A stretch of 5,092 nucleotides of DNA from Chloroflexota bacterium (GTDB lineage: Bacteria > Chloroflexota > Limnocylindria > Limnocylindrales > CSP1-4): positions 1 to 5,092 of the forward strand of contig JAJYDP010000414.1 in the NCBI GenBank assembly GCA_021777365.1, in the 5' to 3' direction. The position numbers and the translations under genes are program-made. Position 1 is the stretch's first letter; each line of letters opens with the position of its first letter. This document shows, in pieces, positions 1 to 5,092 of the stretch. The notes under the pieces are model-generated. The model was not told where the DNA came from. It ran no database searches and saw nothing but the letters and a program-made list of their open reading frames with translations.

Positions 1-472
1 GCGCACCGGGACTCGCTGGCGCGCTCGGACTGGGCGGCGGCGTGGGGCCCTGCAGTGGCTGCACGGGCTGCACGCCCGACAGCCCCCGGAAGGCGCTCGA
101 GCCCGCGTAGTACCCCGTCGGACCCCACTGGCTGGTCACCAGCGCGTGCGCCTGGATGGCCGGGTTCCCGGTGGCGATCGCCGAGCGCAGCGCCACATAG
201 GCTGGGTTGTTCTTGAGGTTCCAGGCGGCGGCTTCGATGCCCGCCTGCGGCGTCGCGAAGGTGGCCAGCCACTGACCGTCCGACGCCTGGGCGACGCCCG
301 TCTGGCCCGGGTAGACGCCCGTCGCCGCGCCGTTCTTCACGGTCAGTCCGAGGACGTTGCCGTTGACGCCCTGCTCGGCGGTCACCTGCGCGCGAGCCAC
401 CGACAGGTCGAGGCCCGACAGCTTGGACCAGAGCTGCGCCAGGCTGTCGATCGCGCTCTGCGTGTAGTTCAT
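1..472 (-). CDS. Lysozyme-like phage-type peptidoglycan hydrolase candidate, C-terminus cut by window edge
   Basis: The frame reads leftward from ATG at 472-470 and stays open to base 1, giving 157 codons without a stop. It begins MNYTQSAIDSLAQLWSKL. A glutamate at residue 33 in the context AQVTAEQGVNGNVLG resembles the 'E...N.lG' arrangement of glucosaminidase and lysozyme-like muramidases. Further on, WLATFATPQAGIEAAAWNL (68-86) and an aromatic/Ser-Gln-Trp stretch near 113-122 resemble the second half of such phage-type domains. From about residue 143 a Pro/Ser/Ala linker starts, so a further domain (cell-wall binding or structural) may lie outside the window. No signal peptide is visible, which would fit a phage endolysin, a tail-associated protein or holin-dependent export. 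The start is set by a perfect AGGAGG six bases upstream. Reading the coding strand as real is secure. The enzyme class is inferred from pattern only, and the catalytic role of E33 is unproven. Confidence 0.72.
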   Translation of the reverse strand, partial: MNYTQSAIDSLAQLWSKLSGLDLSVARAQVTAEQGVNGNVLGLTVKNGAATGVYPGQTGVAQASDGQWLATFATPQAGIEAAAWNLKNNPAYVALRSAIATGNPAIQAHALVTSQWGPTGYYAGSSAFRGLSGVQPVQPLQGPTPPPSPSAPASPGA

Positions 473-538: not shown

Positions 539-567
539 TTGCAGACATGGCCGATAGCGGCTACACT
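539..567 (+). promoter_or_regulatory. Sigma70-type promoter producing a probable leaderless mRNA for the 576 gene
   Basis: TTGCAG (539-544) and TACACT (562-567) match -35 and -10 consensus boxes with an optimal 17-bp spacer. The -10 box ends eight bases before the ATG at 576, so transcription should start at or within a base or two of the initiator A. No Shine-Dalgarno sequence precedes that ATG. This is the standard layout of leaderless genes in high-GC bacteria. It would drive the operon 576-2638. The remaining bases between 473 and 575 should hold the promoter of the divergent lysozyme-like gene, for which I see only a weak TACGCT (532-527 on the minus strand) without a good -35. Confidence 0.68.
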
Positions 568-575
568 CGCTCGTC

Positions 576-824
576 ATGGAACGCATGGACGGCGTACTCA
601 CCCTGGCTGAGGCCGCGGAGCGCCTCGGGCTCGCCTCGGACACCCTGCGCCACCAGGCGCAGGGTGGCCGCCTGCAGGCACGGCTGATCGGCAAGACTTG
701 GGTCACCACGCTCGAGGAAGTGGAGCGATACCGCCGAGAGAGTCTCGGTCGACGGCGGCCGACCCTGCGCCGGCCGCCCGAGTCGACGGCGCAGGCAGCC
801 GAACCCCCGGCCGATCGCCGCTGA
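576..824 (+). CDS. Small MerR/excisionase-type helix-turn-helix protein
   Basis: An 82-residue protein. Residues 7-52 form the HTH_17/excisionase-type fold. TLAEAAERLG (9-18) is the first helix, residues 20-30 (ASDTLRHQAQG) are the recognition helix, and GRLQARLIGKTWVTTLEEVERY is the wing plus closing helix, with the small conserved glycine and lysine at 39-40. The tail (57-82) is rich in Arg and Pro, suited to non-specific DNA contact. It is the first gene of a compact operon, and its stop is 12 bases before the tyrosine recombinase start. In known integrative elements such a small HTH protein next to an integrase often acts as an excisionase/directionality factor, or as a repressor of the operon. 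Which applies here is inference. ATG 576 is chosen because the promoter ends immediately before it; a second ATG three codons later (585) is possible. No dimerisation or ligand domain of a full MerR regulator is present. Confidence 0.85.
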   Translation: MERMDGVLTLAEAAERLGLASDTLRHQAQGGRLQARLIGKTWVTTLEEVERYRRESLGRRRPTLRRPPESTAQAAEPPADRR

Positions 825-836: not shown

Positions 837-2054
837 ATGGCGTGGTCGCCGCCCCTCGCCTCGCTCCCCGACCCGCAGGTCCACGGTGTGCTGACGCCCC
901 GCGAGCTGGCGGCTCTCGCGGCCAGTGGCCATCGGGTCCACCGGGTGGGCCGGGCGGCCTACGTGCATGGCCCTGGTCATCGCTGGATCTTCGGGGTGTG
1001 GGGGAGGCACGAGGCGCCGCCGGCTTGGCATGCTCGCCTGCGCGCCTACAGGGCGTGGTGGCTGGGCCGCGGTTCGACGCCCGCGCGCCGTCGCGCCCCC
1101 GTGGCACCGCCGGTCCAGCGGACGCCCGGAATCGCGACGCTCGAGACCGCCGTTGCGGCGTACCTGGAGCACCTGGCGGCCCGCGGCGACTCGCCGCACA
1201 CGTGGCGTGCCTACCGGACCGCCCTGCGCCAGTGGCTCGCCTTCACGGAGGCGAGCGGCGCCGACTGGACCGCACCGGGCCGTGACCATCTGCGCGCGTA
1301 CCTGGCCTATCTGGTCGACGCCCGCGGGGTCTCGCGCGCCACAGAAGCGCACCGGCTCACCATCCTGCGGAGCTTCTACCGTTGGTGCGCTCGCGAGGGA
1401 CTGGTCGATGGCCCGCCCCTGCGGGGGATCCGCGGCCCTCGCGGGCGCCGGCGGTTGCCGCGACCGCTGAGCCACGCACAGGTCACCCGCCTGCTCGAGG
1501 GGATCACTGACACCGACCCGCTGGCCCTGCGCGATCGCGCGCTCTTGGAGACCGCGTATGCCGCAGGCCTGCGCATCGAGGAACTCGTGGGCCTGCGCCT
1601 GGCCGACCTCGACTTGGAGCGTAGGTGCCTGCGCGTGGTCGGCAAGGGCGACCGGGAGCGGGAGTGCCCCATCGGTCGCTACGCGGTGGCCGCCCTGCGC
1701 ACCTACCTGGCCTGGGGTCGTCCCGACCTCGCCGCCACGCCGGATCCGGACGTGGTCTTTCTCAATGCGCGGGGAGGTCCCTTGCACCAGCGGGGAGCGC
1801 GGTTCCGCTTCGCGACCCTAGCCCGGCGAGCCGAGCTGCCGCCTGGCAGCAGCCCTCACAGCCTGCGCCACTCCTTCGCCACGCACCTGCTGGAAGGCGG
1901 GGCCGACCTGCGCACCATCCAGGAGCTGCTCGGCCACCAGCGACTCGTGACCACCGCCGCGTACCTCCAGGTGACGCCGGTCTTCGCGGCGGCGAGCTAC
2001 GGGACGGCCCACCCCCGCGCCCGCAGCCGGCGGACCGCCGCGGTGGCGGGTTGA
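837..2054 (+). CDS. Tyrosine recombinase (XerC/XerD-like integrase) with extra N-terminal region
   Basis: A 405-residue phage-integrase-family recombinase that would cut and rejoin DNA through a 3'-phosphotyrosine intermediate. The core-binding (SAM-like) domain spans about 100-190 (TLETAVAAYLEHLAARG, then HTWRAYRTALRQWL). The catalytic domain spans about 207-380. All six catalytic positions are present: R246 in AAGLRIEEL, K270 in VVGKGDRER, H341 and R344 in HSLRHSFATHLLEGG, H367 in ELLGHQRL, and nucleophile Y376 in TTAAYLQVT. XerC/D proteins are about 300 residues, so residues 1-95 are extra. They contain LTPRELAALAASG and an aromatic stretch (RAAYVHGPGHRWIFGVW) that I do not recognise, possibly an arm-site or accessory domain. 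The gene sits second in the operon after a small HTH protein and two bases before the triple-HTH gene. This context favours an integrase of a mobile element over a housekeeping Xer protein. No att site could be identified from this window alone. Confidence 0.93.
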   Translation: MAWSPPLASLPDPQVHGVLTPRELAALAASGHRVHRVGRAAYVHGPGHRWIFGVWGRHEAPPAWHARLRAYRAWWLGRGSTPARRRAPVAPPVQRTPGIATLETAVAAYLEHLAARGDSPHTWRAYRTALRQWLAFTEASGADWTAPGRDHLRAYLAYLVDARGVSRATEAHRLTILRSFYRWCAREGLVDGPPLRGIRGPRGRRRLPRPLSHAQVTRLLEGITDTDPLALRDRALLETAYAAGLRIEELVGLRLADLDLERRCLRVVGKGDRERECPIGRYAVAALRTYLAWGRPDLAATPDPDVVFLNARGGPLHQRGARFRFATLARRAELPPGSSPHSLRHSFATHLLEGGADLRTIQELLGHQRLVTTAAYLQVTPVFAAASYGTAHPRARSRRTAAVAG

Positions 2055-2056
2055 GC

Positions 2057-2638
2057 ATGGCCGAGCGCGGGCTGGTCTCTGTCGTGGGCGCGGCGCGCAT
2101 CCTGGGCGTGCACCCAAACACGGTGCGAGCCTGGACCGAACAGGGCCGGTTGCCCGCGATCCGGATCAACGCCCGCGGCGATCGCCGGTACCGGATCGCG
2201 GACCTCGGCGACGACGGCGGGCGCGGGCCACTCGTCTCGGTCGCCGGGGCGGCGCGTACCCTCGGGATCCCGCGCGGTGCCGTGCGGGCCTGGACCGATC
2301 AAGGCCGGCTGCCCGCGATGCGGATCAACGCCCGCGGCGACCGACGGTTCCGCTTGGCAGACCTTGAGGAGACGATGCGTGGTGCTGGGTCGACCCCAAC
2401 GGCCACCCCGGAGCCCCCAGAGCCATACCGCGACACGGCCGCGCCCCTCGTTTCGGCAGCCGACGCGGCACGCATCCTGGGCGTGCACCCAAACACGGTG
2501 CGAGCCTGGACCGAACAGGGACGACTCCCGGCCGCGCGCATCAACACGCGGGGCGATCGGCGCTACCGTCTGGAAGACATCGAGGCCTTCCTGATCATGG
2601 CGACCGCGACGCACGTATCCGGAGGTGAGCTAGGCTAG
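2057..2638 (+). CDS. Triple tandem MerR/excisionase-type HTH protein
   Basis: A 193-residue protein built almost entirely of three copies of one ~45-residue DNA-binding unit, at about 6-50, 59-103 and 131-175. Each runs VS-x-x-x-AAR-x-LG, then VRAWT-x-QGRLPA, then RIN-x-RGDRR-x-R, then a short closing helix (IADL, LADL, LEDI). Copies 1 and 2 are joined by a short Gly/Asp-rich linker, copies 2 and 3 by a Pro/Thr-rich linker (about 110-130). There is no other domain. A single unit of this kind is what excisionases and small MerR-like repressors use. Three in one chain suggests binding to a row of adjacent sites without needing oligomerisation, for example at an att region or the operon promoter. 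ATG 2057 lies two bases after the recombinase stop, so translation is probably coupled; TTG two codons earlier is an alternative. The frame is open upstream inside the recombinase gene, but that stretch is in its +1 shadow frame and looks non-coding. The function is inferred. Confidence 0.88.
   Translation: MAERGLVSVVGAARILGVHPNTVRAWTEQGRLPAIRINARGDRRYRIADLGDDGGRGPLVSVAGAARTLGIPRGAVRAWTDQGRLPAMRINARGDRRFRLADLEETMRGAGSTPTATPEPPEPYRDTAAPLVSAADAARILGVHPNTVRAWTEQGRLPAARINTRGDRRYRLEDIEAFLIMATATHVSGGELG
2096..2145 (+). repeat. Perfect 50-bp direct repeat, copy 1 (HTH unit 1)
   Basis: These 50 bases are identical, base for base, to 2471-2520. They encode the recognition half of HTH unit 1 (RILGVHPNTVRAWTEQG). 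The two copies start 375 bp apart, exactly 125 codons. Unit 2 at the equivalent place matches only 32 of 50. Confidence 0.95.
2471..2520 (+). repeat. Perfect 50-bp direct repeat, copy 2 (HTH unit 3)
   Basis: Identical to 2096-2145 and in the same reading frame, encoding the recognition half of HTH unit 3. Deletion between the two copies would remove 125 codons and leave a 68-residue protein with a single HTH unit still in frame. Confidence 0.95.
2621..2628 (+). promoter_or_regulatory. Strong Shine-Dalgarno-like GGAGGTGA without a well-placed start
   Basis: GGAGGTGA is a near-perfect complement of the 16S rRNA tail, but no ATG, GTG or TTG lies 4-12 bases downstream. The nearest candidates are GTG 2651 and ATG 2657, 22 and 28 bases beyond it. 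It overlaps the last codons of the triple-HTH gene. A perfect 5-bp dyad, GCTAG-G-CTAGC (2629-2639), follows immediately. It may be chance or help re-initiation. Confidence 0.3.
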
Positions 2639-2656
2639 CGAGCACAGGCGGTGGAC

Positions 2657-3502
2657 ATGGCGGACAGCTCAGCGGCGGGCGTCGAAGACCGGCTCTGCCC
2701 ACACTGCGGGAAGCGCGTGGCGCTCGATCGCAGGAGCTACTGCGATCACTGCGGGGAGCCACTGCCGCCCGGGTTTGCCGTTCGGCCTGACGCCCGCGCA
2801 GCGTCGGATCGCATCGCCTCCGCGCGCGGCTGGATCGTGGTAGCGCTCGCCCTGGGCGTCGGCGCCTATGCATGGTTCTCGGGCGCGCTGGCATCGATCG
2901 CCCCGGGGGCCGCGCCAGGCCACTGCGCGGTCGGCCTCAACGGGGCCGCCGTGTCGGTGGCGATCGATGGGCCGGGCGCGCTGGCCCAATGCGACTCGTT
3001 CCTGACTCAGACCACCGACGGGGGTACGTGGTACGTCTACGCCAACGGAGCGCAACCCGGTGGAGCGATGATCTGTCAGGTCTCCTACGCCGGGGATGAG
3101 TGGGCAGTGCGTGACGATGGCGCCCTGGACTTGTACGGCAGCGGGATCTGCAAGAACCTGATCAGCATGGCCAACGGCGCGGCGACCACGCCAGCGGTGT
3201 CGTCGGCGCCAACAGGGAGCGTCGACGTGGCCGGGGCGGGCGGAACCGCGTGCGGACTGCAGGTCGACGGTGCCAACGCGACGATCATCGCATCAGCCGA
3301 CGTGTGTGGCGCCTTCGCGGCCGCCAACCCTCCCGCTGGAGGCGCCACCTGGATGGCGATCGATCCGAGCTCGGGGCCGCCGACCGCCGATCGAGACATC
3401 TGCGACGGCACGTGGTCAGGGGCGCAGGTGTCGGTGTGGGACTCGGGCTTGGCCTACTACGGGTCGAGGCTCTGCCAGGGGCTCGGCTGGGCGACGCATT
3501 GA
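2657..3502 (+). CDS. Zinc-ribbon, single-pass membrane protein with duplicated four-cysteine outer domain
   Basis: A 281-residue protein from ATG 2657; GTG 2651 two codons earlier is the longest alternative. I prefer the ATG because GGCGG lies five bases before it. Residues 14-32 form a zinc ribbon with CPHC and CDHC pairs (C14, C17, C29, C32). A hydrophobic segment at about 59-81 (WIVVALALGVGAYAWF) is one membrane helix. The rest should lie outside and is an internal duplication. Repeat A has cysteines at about 90, 112, 140 and 165, repeat B at about 199, 217, 249 and 273. Both share a TW after the second cysteine, an IC third cysteine, then V-x-D-x-G and YGS before the fourth. This suggests two disulfides per repeat. 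I recognise no family for the repeat. It follows the recombination operon with an 18-bp gap, on the same strand. A role as cell-surface or sensor protein is speculation. Confidence 0.85.
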   Translation: MADSSAAGVEDRLCPHCGKRVALDRRSYCDHCGEPLPPGFAVRPDARAASDRIASARGWIVVALALGVGAYAWFSGALASIAPGAAPGHCAVGLNGAAVSVAIDGPGALAQCDSFLTQTTDGGTWYVYANGAQPGGAMICQVSYAGDEWAVRDDGALDLYGSGICKNLISMANGAATTPAVSSAPTGSVDVAGAGGTACGLQVDGANATIIASADVCGAFAAANPPAGGATWMAIDPSSGPPTADRDICDGTWSGAQVSVWDSGLAYYGSRLCQGLGWATH

Positions 3503-3601
3503 CCGCCGAAGGACTGGGACCGCCTGATCGGGCCTGCTCCACAAGGAGATCCTTCCGGAGCGGGCGCCGCGGCCGTCGGTCGCCGCACGAATCCGGGCGC
3601 T

Positions 3602-3618
3602 GGGGGCGGGCCCCCTTT
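3602..3618 (+). terminator. Candidate terminator hairpin with short T run
   Basis: GGGGG-CGGG-CCCCC is a five-pair GC stem with a four-base loop, followed by TTT. It is 100 bp past the stop of the zinc-ribbon membrane gene. The T run is short, so intrinsic termination is only likely, not certain. Confidence 0.45.
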
Positions 3619-3693
3619 CGGGACGGTCCTGCGCCGGGCTAGCAGGTGGGACTCAGAGGCGCGATCGATCGTGGGGAGCGCCAGACGCGGCGA

Positions 3694-3886: not shown

Positions 3887-4351
3887 TCACCAGCCCCGGA
3901 ATCCACCGGCCCACGGGTCGCCGACCACCGGCCCGGATGCGGCCGGCGGGGCGGAGGGGCGCCGGAACCGGTAGCCGACGGCCGCCACCATGATCACCAC
4001 GGCGATCACCCCGAGCAACCACGGGGACCAGCGCGGCAGGGCGCGAGGGGCAGACGGCGATGCATCCGTGGCGGCGCCGGTGACGGACGGCGTGGCTGGC
4101 GCTGGCGCCGATGCCGGGGCCGCGGGCGGTACCGCCATGACTTCCGCGGCGGCGAGTTCGCGGGCCATGGCGCGGCCGGCTTCGGTGAACTGATAGCGCG
4201 CGTAGGCGGGGCTGGCCACCAGCCCGCGGGCCATCAGTCGGTGCAGTGCGCGCCGGCAGACGCGGGCGTCGAGTCCCGTGGCCCGCGCACAGTCCGCGGT
4301 GGAGCGGGCGCCTGCCGCGAGCGTCGCCAGGACGGCCTCGTCAGCGTTCAT
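3887..4351 (-). CDS. Winged-helix DNA-binding protein with C-terminal membrane anchor
   Basis: A 154-residue protein read leftward from ATG 4351 to TGA at 3889-3887. Residues 3-65 look like a winged helix: DEAVLATLAAGARSTADCA, then LDARVCRRALHRLMARGLV as the recognition region, and a beta wing with ARYQFTEAGRAMAREL, the 'Y.lT..G' pattern common in MarR/ArsR-like and archaeal-type regulators. An Ala/Pro linker follows (about 70-106). A single hydrophobic helix at 109-127 (SPWLLGVIAVVIMVAAVGY) precedes a 27-residue tail with RFRR and a Trp-rich end (DPWAGGFRGW). The HTH must be in the cytoplasm, placing the tail outside or in the wall space. This layout suits a one-component membrane-bound regulator. 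GTG 4354 directly before the ATG is an alternative start. The ATG is preferred because a -10 box lies six bases before it. The upstream repeat field could be its operator or the serine recombinase's site. The ligand is unknown. Confidence 0.8.
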   Translation of the reverse strand: MNADEAVLATLAAGARSTADCARATGLDARVCRRALHRLMARGLVASPAYARYQFTEAGRAMARELAAAEVMAVPPAAPASAPAPATPSVTGAATDASPSAPRALPRWSPWLLGVIAVVIMVAAVGYRFRRPSAPPAASGPVVGDPWAGGFRGW

Positions 4352-4357
4352 CACGGC

Positions 4358-4363: not shown

Positions 4364-4410
4364 CCACCCCGTCTGCGGCATCCGAGTCCGGGGCGACTCC
4401 CGCGGCTGCC

Positions 4411-4442
4411 CGCGCCGACTCCTGTACAACCCCGTGACAACC
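4411..4442 (+). repeat. 32-bp direct repeat, copy 1, merging into an 11-bp tandem
   Basis: It differs from each of the copies at 4544 and 4610 at only two or three of 32 positions. Its right half begins two exact tandem copies of ACAACCCCGTG (4426-4436 and 4437-4447). The 11-bp period is close to one turn of DNA. Confidence 0.9.
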
Positions 4443-4505
4443 CCGTGACGAGCGGCCGCCGTCGGTGAGCGCGCCGCACCCGCGGAGCGAGCGGTCCGGT
4501 GGCGA

Positions 4506-4514
4506 CCCCGTGAC
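4506..4514 (+). repeat. Isolated CCCCGTGAC unit
   Basis: ACCCCGTGACGAGC (4505-4518) repeats the end of the tandem at 4440-4453 exactly, without the left half of the 32-bp repeat. It begins 65 bp after the previous unit and 57 bp before the next. Confidence 0.7.
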
Positions 4515-4543
4515 GAGCCTCGCGATCGCGGTCCGCGGTTCTC

Positions 4544-4575
4544 CGCGCCGACTCCCGTACAACCCCGTCACAACC
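4544..4575 (+). repeat. 32-bp direct repeat, copy 2
   Basis: It matches copy 1 at 30 of 32 positions; the core reads GTACAACCCCGTCACAACC. It starts 133 bp after copy 1 and 66 bp before copy 3, so copies fall at about one and two units of 66 bp. Directly after it, CCGGCCGG forms a small palindrome (4574-4581). Confidence 0.9.
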
Positions 4576-4609
4576 GGCCGGCGACGGCTCGCGGCGCAGG
4601 GTGCCGTGC

Positions 4610-4641
4610 CGCGCCAACTCCCGTACAACCCCGTGACAACC
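4610..4641 (+). repeat. 32-bp direct repeat, copy 3
   Basis: Differs from copy 2 at two positions; the core reads GTACAACCCCGTGACAACC. A second partial 11-bp unit, ACAACCCCG (4636-4644), follows in tandem. It ends 31 bp from the stop codon of the serine recombinase. Confidence 0.9.
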
Positions 4642-4672
4642 CCGCCGCACGTGGGGAGCCCGGTGGGTCCGC

Positions 4673-5092
4673 TCACCGGCCGGCCGCGCCGCTGTCACCG
4701 TCGGCCAGGAGCCGGGCCAGGGTGGCCGTCCCGATGCCCAGACGACGGGCCGCCTGGCGGCGCGAGAGGGTTCCTGCGCCGATCGCCGCCCGGACCGCCG
4801 GCCACTGCCGGGCGAACCCGGGACGCGCGGTCACCGGCGGCCGGCCGATGTGGGCCCCCTGCCGGGCGGCGTGGCGCATCCCCTCCCGGACGCGGTCGGC
4901 GATGAGTTCGCGCTCCATCTCCGCGACGGCGGCCAGGATGGTGAAGACGAGCCGGCCGGTCGGGGCGGTAGTGTCGAGCTCGGGCTGGGTGAGGGCGGCG
5001 AAGCCGACCCCGTGATGCTCGAGATCCCGGAGGGTGGCCAGGGCGTGCAGCGTGGAGCGGAAGGCCCGGTCGAGCTTCCACACCAGCACGAG
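4673..5092 (-). CDS. Serine recombinase (resolvase/invertase), N-terminus cut by window edge
   Basis: The frame is open from the right edge to TGA at 4675-4673, giving 139 codons. The visible part starts LVLVWKLDRAFRST, the conserved segment around the second set of catalytic residues. By comparison with gamma-delta resolvase, the D, R and R of LDRAFR correspond to D67, R68 and R71. Then DTTAPTGRLVFTILAAVAEMERELIADRVREGM is the DT-x-x-x-G motif and the long E helix with its AE-x-E signature, and GRPP opens the linker. The C-terminus GTLSRRQAARRLGIGTATLARLLAD is a Hin-type helix-turn-helix. The nucleophile serine and first 60 or so residues lie outside the window. Total size should be about 190-200 residues, that of the small resolvase/invertase class. 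A GTG at 5089 is inside the domain and is not the real start. The repeat field just downstream could contain its target sites. Confidence 0.92.
   Translation of the reverse strand, partial: LVLVWKLDRAFRSTLHALATLRDLEHHGVGFAALTQPELDTTAPTGRLVFTILAAVAEMERELIADRVREGMRHAARQGAHIGRPPVTARPGFARQWPAVRAAIGAGTLSRRQAARRLGIGTATLARLLADGDSGAAGR

Follow-up and report, generated by a model that had tools for sequence, protein, structure and literature searches.

Why would a bacterium encode three winged helix-turn-helix (wHTH) DNA-binding units in a single chain, directly behind a tyrosine recombinase? This question is raised by a gene at positions 2057-2638 of a 5,092-nucleotide stretch from a Chloroflexota bacterium (contig JAJYDP010000414.1, forward strand), hereafter called the window. 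We found by computation that its product, termed here the array, consists of three units of one fold class kept by selection, that its gene is coupled to that of the recombinase, and that a two-unit partner exists in a second genus. From the analysis as a whole, we lean, without great conviction, towards the array being a BldC/Xis-like DNA-binding protein that assists the recombinase module as an accessory factor, regulates it, or both.

The array consists of three separate winged HTH units

The units are listed below with secondary structure elements taken from an AlphaFold2 (AF2) model of the protein, built with a 27-row alignment.

2057..2638, + strand: three-unit winged-HTH protein P0001, 193 amino acids plus stop, no other domain found
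2075..2206, + strand: unit 1 core, residues 7-50; AF2 helices 9-16 and 20-28, strand 43-46
2234..2365, + strand: unit 2 core, residues 60-103; AF2 helices 62-69 and 73-81, recognition region altered
2450..2581, + strand: unit 3 core, residues 132-175; about 28 residues beyond unit 2, with a Pro-rich stretch between
2096..2145, + strand: 50-nt tract of unit 1, identical to 2471-2520, spanning recognition-helix codons
2471..2520, + strand: 50-nt tract of unit 3, identical to 2096-2145

The original prediction described this protein as three excisionase-type HTH domains in 193 residues and nothing else, and two profiles agree with it. Both Pfam HTH_17 (PF12728; 1.1e-33, 115.7 bits for a cut-off of 27) and NCBIfam 'excise' (TIGR01764; 5.4e-24, 84.3 bits for a cut-off of 28.8) match three stretches of the chain and exceed their curated cut-offs, which places it in the HTH_17/excisionase-type DNA-binding domain family. 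The AF2 model displays three separate winged HTHs (mean pLDDT 82.5, pTM 0.41), as had been anticipated. Packing of the three units as one fold is thus rejected, and no single non-DNA-binding fold is seen. The low pTM fits units without fixed relative placement, and the second linker (residues 113-126) has a pLDDT under 50.

In a fold comparison of the model, the nearest solved structure is BldC, with excisionases (4J2N and 8C3T) among the next. The protein nevertheless remains below the cut-off of the BldC family NF033787 (60.7 bits vs 77). It does not correspond to a classical MerR regulator either: neither the profile matches nor the model contain the dimerizing coiled coil and effector domain that would follow the wHTH, and the chain ends simply with a last helix (residues 172-191). 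The term 'excisionase-type' therefore holds as a profile label and not as a demonstrated role, since BldC comes ahead of Xis and the nearest sequence relatives found, array proteins aside, are single-unit proteins, including a host protein of the HTH_17-GAF-GGDEF type.

The three window units, the two units of the partner protein in genome G067 and one host unit were compared pairwise. In all 15 pairs, pN/pS lies between 0.17 and 0.53, amino-acid change per site being lower than synonymous change; on these values, a chance open reading frame (ORF) at 2057-2638 was rejected. Identity over 50 nt between units 1 and 3 was reached in 1 of 20,000 synonymous-codon simulations (fixed protein, local codon usage), and the longest identical runs in the other 14 pairs measure 9-20 nt. 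We infer that the shared tract results from conversion or recent duplication. The middle unit departs from its two neighbors precisely in this region, IPRGAVRAW replacing VHPNTVRAW (PRGA for HPNT).

One could then wonder whether chance duplication within a mobile cassette simply lengthened the array, leaving a single working unit while the others decay. The loss of the HPNT motif from the middle unit and the trace of recent duplication or conversion would go along with this idea. However, pN/pS does not exceed 0.53 in any tested pair and unit 2 keeps a confident wHTH fold, and we regard this explanation as very improbable.

Genes for multi-unit chains follow a tyrosine recombinase in two genera

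837..2054, + strand: tyrosine recombinase, 405 amino acids; Phage_integrase 1.2e-41, SAM_1 5.7e-15
576..824, + strand: single-HTH protein, 82 amino acids; HTH_59 3.8e-7 and HTH_17 9e-7, both over cut-off

As the original prediction had noted, the array gene starts two bases after the recombinase gene (stop ending at 2054, ATG at 2057). The recombinase appears intact from its sequence: it carries an N-terminal extension of about 100 residues, and the catalytic motif regions are present, which we take to hold the catalytic Arg, Lys, His/Arg, His and Tyr. Upstream of it, the 82-residue protein contributes a fourth HTH_17-type domain to the same gene run. An orthologous recombinase (69% identical) occurs in G067, which belongs to a different genus, and is followed there by the two-unit relative in the same gene order as in the window. 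As for the triple architecture beside recombinases, which it was suggested at the outset to seek in genomes, this two-unit version and no other triple appeared among the matches listed and the loci scanned.

Chains with several units look rare in sequence searches. The protein searches gave 230 and 925 matches, 120 of each being listed. Among the matches listed, 188 distinct proteins (the array included) divide into 181 with one unit, six with two (P0002, P0003, P0004, P0122, P0123 and P0132) and one with three; apart from array proteins, the closest sequence relatives found carry a single unit. The host's closest relative of the array units has the architecture HTH_17 - four GAF - GGDEF, and its unit shares 35 of 44 residues with unit 1. 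P0001 was matched in 37 of 61 genomes (G000, the genome whose contig C77 contains a nearly identical copy of the window, included). ORFs with more than one unit were present only at the G000 and G067 places among 231 scanned loci, several of which overlap. To look for arrays hidden in genome matches with wide query spans, 13 such places were fetched; each holds one unit, some with stops within the match, and this candidate explanation was dropped.

The class survey (177 genomes) gave matches to P0001 at E <= 1e-20 in G000 and G067 alone, the G067 row covering one unit. In the phylum survey, 29 of 400 genomes match at E <= 1e-14, and no unbroken two-unit match beyond the window's own protein is listed among at most eight candidates scored per genome. 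P0001 had no tblastn match in phage and plasmid records. In viral contigs, alignments A1 and A5 matched five loci each, none of which has a multi-unit ORF.

Comparison with known systems

Parallels can be drawn with several families. BldC of Streptomyces (PDB 6AMA, 6AMK), the closest PDB entry by both sequence and structure, shares the wHTH fold of the array units; using this domain alone, it binds 9-bp direct repeats head-to-tail and distorts the DNA (PMC5859096). Each 68-residue BldC protein provides one unit that assembles with others on DNA (PMC5859096), whereas in the array three units are linked in one chain. Recombination directionality factors of the RdfS/Xis kind are wHTH proteins working with tyrosine recombinases. 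On DNA, lambda Xis builds filaments and RdfS oligomers arranged head-to-tail; RdfS covers about 10 bp with each unit, binds close to attP and is in addition an activator of the integrase promoter (PMC11963761). RdfG and RdfM, MerR-superfamily wHTH proteins, are excision factors that their integrases require (PMC5882170). RdfS, lambda Xis, Pukovnik Xis and the GIsul2 excisionase resemble the array units in fold but have a single unit per chain. Like such factors, the array is encoded next to a tyrosine recombinase; unlike them, it is not a small single-wHTH protein. The excision role of RdfS has been tested (PMC11963761), whereas such a role of the array would be a prediction from sequence and model.

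Chains made of two or three HTHs are already known. TraN, encoded on a mobile element, the plasmid pIP501, contains two MerR/Xis/BldC-like wHTH units in 122 residues and is a repressor with a 34-bp site (PMC10877727). The array also has more than one Xis/BldC-fold wHTH per chain, a likeness of architecture; TraN has two units and belongs to a conjugation operon, and the accessible part of its report mentions no tyrosine recombinase partner (PMC10877727). In Sulfolobales and relatives, Cbp1 has three HTHs and Cbp2 two in one chain, and those of Cbp1 arose by domain duplication and are aligned along a DNA repeat (PMC10883916). Three HTHs per chain with a sign of duplication are likewise found in the array, units 1 and 3 sharing the 50-nt tract; Cbp1 is archaeal and binds CRISPR repeats (PMC10883916), and the parallel drawn here is again one of architecture. 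The novelty would therefore lie in the composition, three Xis/BldC-type units behind a tyrosine recombinase, of which we found no description in the literature searched, most subscription papers being outside it.

The likeness to TraN, a two-unit repressor that resembles both Xis and BldC (PMC10877727), brings in another explanation: the array could control transcription of the element's genes, as repressor or activator, and take no direct part in recombination, its place in the recombinase gene run serving for co-expression only. The presence of the host's closest unit relative in an HTH_17-GAF-GGDEF regulator would support it. On the other hand, the array stands behind the recombinase in both elements found and has diverged jointly with its catalytic half. 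We consider a purely regulatory role rather unlikely, though it deserves serious attention. The two roles are not mutually exclusive, since the RdfS excisionase is also a transcriptional activator (PMC11963761).

The array gene lies in a cassette found in both orientations

Computation also revealed that the catalytic half of the recombinase and the array diverged jointly, within a cassette that has inverted ends, occurs in opposite orientations and shows an outer exchange window of 4 bp.

3534..3626, - strand: right-hand inverted repeat IRb, 93 nt; its left copy lies beyond the window, at about 235-344 of G000 contig C77
3606..3632, - strand: candidate recombination core, 27 bp, straddling the cassette edge; outer exchange point in CCGT (3623-3626)
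3887..4354, - strand: winged-HTH-like protein (hereafter the wHTH gene), outside the cassette; matches below cut-off
2..472, - strand: first 157 codons of the divergent gene gluc, at the cassette's left; glucosaminidase-like match (E 0.013), below cut-off

The window corresponds to C77 1070-6161 with 8 differences in 5092 positions (51, 660, 664, 1382, 1545, 1721, 3225 and 4966). Its 82-residue HTH protein is 100% identical to that of G067 owing to positions 660 and 664, the C77 copy being 98% identical. C77 continues with genes for a serine resolvase, for a protein resembling D5_N primases and for a second tyrosine recombinase, then tRNA-Val(gac), followed by apparent thrS, infC, pheST and mutS2-type genes (names assigned by eye). 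The second tyrosine recombinase, at L053 10541-11701, adjoins tRNA-Val(gac). It is likely the integrase of the element, and the 405-residue recombinase is thus probably not. A 41-bp copy of the beginning of the tRNA-Val gene marks the far end (L190 15963-16003); it is present in C199, another G000 contig, and in G067. The element would measure about 12-13 kb, a size summed from pieces because no single contig spans the whole.

Within this tRNA-Val element, the array gene sits in a cassette of about 4.4 kb whose inverted ends, about 93 bp in the window, extend over about 93-110 bp. They are 94.5% identical in C77 (235-344 vs 4602-4711) and 92% identical in L063, an identical part of G067 contig C1 (3079-3176 vs 7118-7216). 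The outer flank with its repeat (C77 4602-7762) is 96.7% identical to G067, inverted relative to the cassette, and the other flank (C199 15915-17254) is 99.5% identical; chromosomal DNA beyond is 86.7% identical to G067. The flank marked by the wHTH gene adjoins opposite cassette ends in the window and in G067, so that a segment bounded by inverted repeats is seen both ways in these two genomes. DNA inversion, and not excision, may therefore be the relevant reaction.

Inside the cassette, identity between the window and G067, per 100 alignment columns, starts at 88-100% (left end to about 1065) and is 43-78% from there to about 3500; the last two values are 81 and 100%, the final one with 16 gap columns. 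This profile indicates that the catalytic half of the recombinase, the array and the third gene have been replaced or have diverged as a unit. Identity falls gradually over about 300 bp, so the edge of the divergent block is not one clean breakpoint.

The two repeat versions of G067, a and b, differ at seven positions. The wHTH flank joins version a in G067, where the distal flank has version b, but it joins version b in the window and C77. The sequences part on either side of a shared CCGT, the flanks differing immediately outside it and the repeats immediately inside, which puts the outer exchange within these 4 nt. Around this point, both ends in G067 show an outer half-site that mirrors the inner one at 7 of 8 positions, a level reached by a fraction of 0.0018 of the 27-mers of the C77 stretch; the window hybrid has 6 of 8, and related sites in genomes G026 and G017 have 3-5 of 8.

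An assembler misjoin is an unlikely cause of the opposite orientation, the outer exchange lying where the flanks have only 4 nt in common. A single RecA crossover within the repeat's long identical portion is rejected for the outer part of the right junction of the window and C77, whereas the end of C199 could possibly stem from such an event. Besides C77, C199 was the one G000 contig found to carry the inverted repeat; its end reads version b (a at position 56) and then three nucleotides of the gluc side. At its left end (L053 1-344), C77 contains a second, inverted partial copy of the wHTH gene (99.6% over 237 nt) that runs into version a, about 312 bp being absent. Both junction types are present in the G000 assembly, but one of them adjoins this loss of about 312 bp at the end of a contig. 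The C77 left end and the C199 end may reflect an alternative orientation, a duplication or contig-end artefacts.

Ends of this kind occur elsewhere. The pattern CCGTYCCGAAAGGG-N18-30-WTCGTGC was found 8 times in 4 of the 177 class genomes (three in G000, two in G067, two in G026 and one in G017), and the reversed control gave 0. An exact 20-nt piece of the inverted repeat was not found in viral contigs. The G026 pair, at L216 (G026:C342) 937-8477 beside a related resolvase, shows a similar outer motif; its inverted repeats (97 columns, 96.9% alike) surround about 7.3 kb in which, by eye, a sugar ABC transporter, kinase and GntR-type operon can be recognized. Cargo may perhaps be interchangeable between similar ends.

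How the array might act on DNA

3561..3602, - strand: three 9-bp direct repeats CGGCGMCCG, inside the inverted repeat; candidate accessory sites

The gene at 2057-2638 encodes three covalently linked winged-HTH units of the MerR/BldC/Xis type, an array of fixed length, and we propose that two or three of these would most likely be set side by side on repeated DNA sites. BldC and Xis achieve such docking by self-assembly and archaeal Cbp1 within one chain. The docked array would then act as an accessory factor and/or autoregulator of the coupled tyrosine-recombinase module, which is carried in the cassette with the inverted repeats of about 93 bp as candidate recombination sites. The 405-residue recombinase would perform cassette inversion, and the array would help or restrain it. 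DNA binding by the array is presumed, as are its target sites and the bending of an att region or silencing of a promoter put forward in the original prediction.

A more specific version would make the array a molecular ruler for DNA inversion, a covalent filament replacing the self-assembling Xis/BldC filament. Its units would dock on the three CGGCGMCCG repeats of each inverted repeat (17 and 16 bp apart) beside the 27-bp crossover core, and would thereby keep both ends in place, or bend them, for the cassette's recombinase; array length, two or three, would evolve by unit duplication and conversion together with the recombinase. The first copy in IRb has one mismatch, and such triples arose in 21 of 2000 dinucleotide shuffles of IRb and 8 of 2000 of IRa, a post hoc comparison. 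We consider this version improbable. If true, site-specific inversion would here make use of a covalent filament.

Several observations weigh against the proposed mechanism. The G067 inverted repeats carry the same three CGGCGMCCG repeats, yet the G067 protein has two units, so that repeat and unit copy numbers disagree. The right repeat of C77 has b at the six outer differing positions and a at the innermost (position 56); its junction could consequently have come from the G067 state in one perfect step only if this base is a private change, and it leaves room for a second event. The IRb of C199 with its 3-nt gluc-side interior is not predicted by a single exchange in CCGT. The neighboring serine resolvase, outside the cassette, could act as inverter instead, although it need not, repeats that are likely its own res site lying elsewhere. 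The 82-residue HTH protein is the more ordinary excisionase candidate. Finally, tblastn found neither the 405-residue recombinase nor an array within the G026 cassette (weak matches occur elsewhere on the contig), so inverted ends can exist without either.

Other target sites were sought in the upstream region 473-575, where DNA binding had been suggested. A 27-nt block (CTTGCAG...GGCTAC) is conserved there with G067; within 440-600, no direct repeats of at least 8 nt were found, only inverted ones. Outside the cassette, the interval from the wHTH gene to the serine resolvase gene holds AACCCCGTGAC-type repeats (at most one mismatch) in both array-carrying elements, five in C77 (window 4428-4637) and six in G067. 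Tandem copies at 11 bp number two in the window and C77 and three in G067, and further copies are 57-66 bp apart (window 4400-4652). The background is 10 in 365,518 bp. Among the other related-resolvase stretches examined, L213 and L215 of G017 have one one-mismatch copy each and the remaining ones have none. The repeats at 4400-4652 are possibly res sites or iterons.

The restriction of these repeats to the two array elements, other related-resolvase stretches having at most one one-mismatch copy, is a further argument for the transcriptional regulator discussed above. One could also assume that the array is a replication or partition factor acting on the 11-bp iteron-like repeats at 4428-4637 and serving primase-based replication. 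Supporting this idea, the element encodes a D5_N primase-helicase-like protein, and C77 has one tandem pair among its five copies and G067 three tandem copies among its six. However, the repeats adjoin the serine resolvase gene, and the res site of a serine resolvase usually lies beside its gene; furthermore, the array gene is in the variable cassette, away from the primase. Such a role seems very improbable to us.

Whichever role the array plays, BldC, lambda Xis and RdfS act as oligomers or filaments whose length depends on the number of assembling monomers. With a natural three-unit chain and a natural two-unit relative on a closely similar element, the control of recombination or promoter output by filament length could be probed, and the opposite cassette orientations with their narrow outer exchange window offer a concrete system for such questions.

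Neighboring genes and minor observations

539..567, + strand: weak promoter-like pair seen by eye (TTGCAG, 17 nt, TACACT)
2651..3502, + strand: 283-residue protein; N-terminal zinc-ribbon match weak, below cut-off

Consensus promoter and terminator scans found none, Rfam gave no match at the gathering threshold, and the full-length G067 copy of gluc (367 residues) had no Pfam match. For the recombinase pair, viral contigs gave 59 stretches, of which none was confirmed. A defense function was not adopted, the PADLOC matches being HTH-domain ones to mad1 and a type II methyltransferase model. The 283-residue protein has, by eye, an apparent membrane segment after its zinc-ribbon-like part, and G067 has a DUF3761 protein in its place. 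At L201 (G091:C6) 6497-9787, homologues of the 82-residue HTH protein and of the zinc-ribbon-like protein lie near each other, with no tblastn match of the recombinase or the array. Another related serine resolvase is encoded in G000 at L217 (G000:C138) 2245-2889, which suggests that this genome contains another element of the same family.
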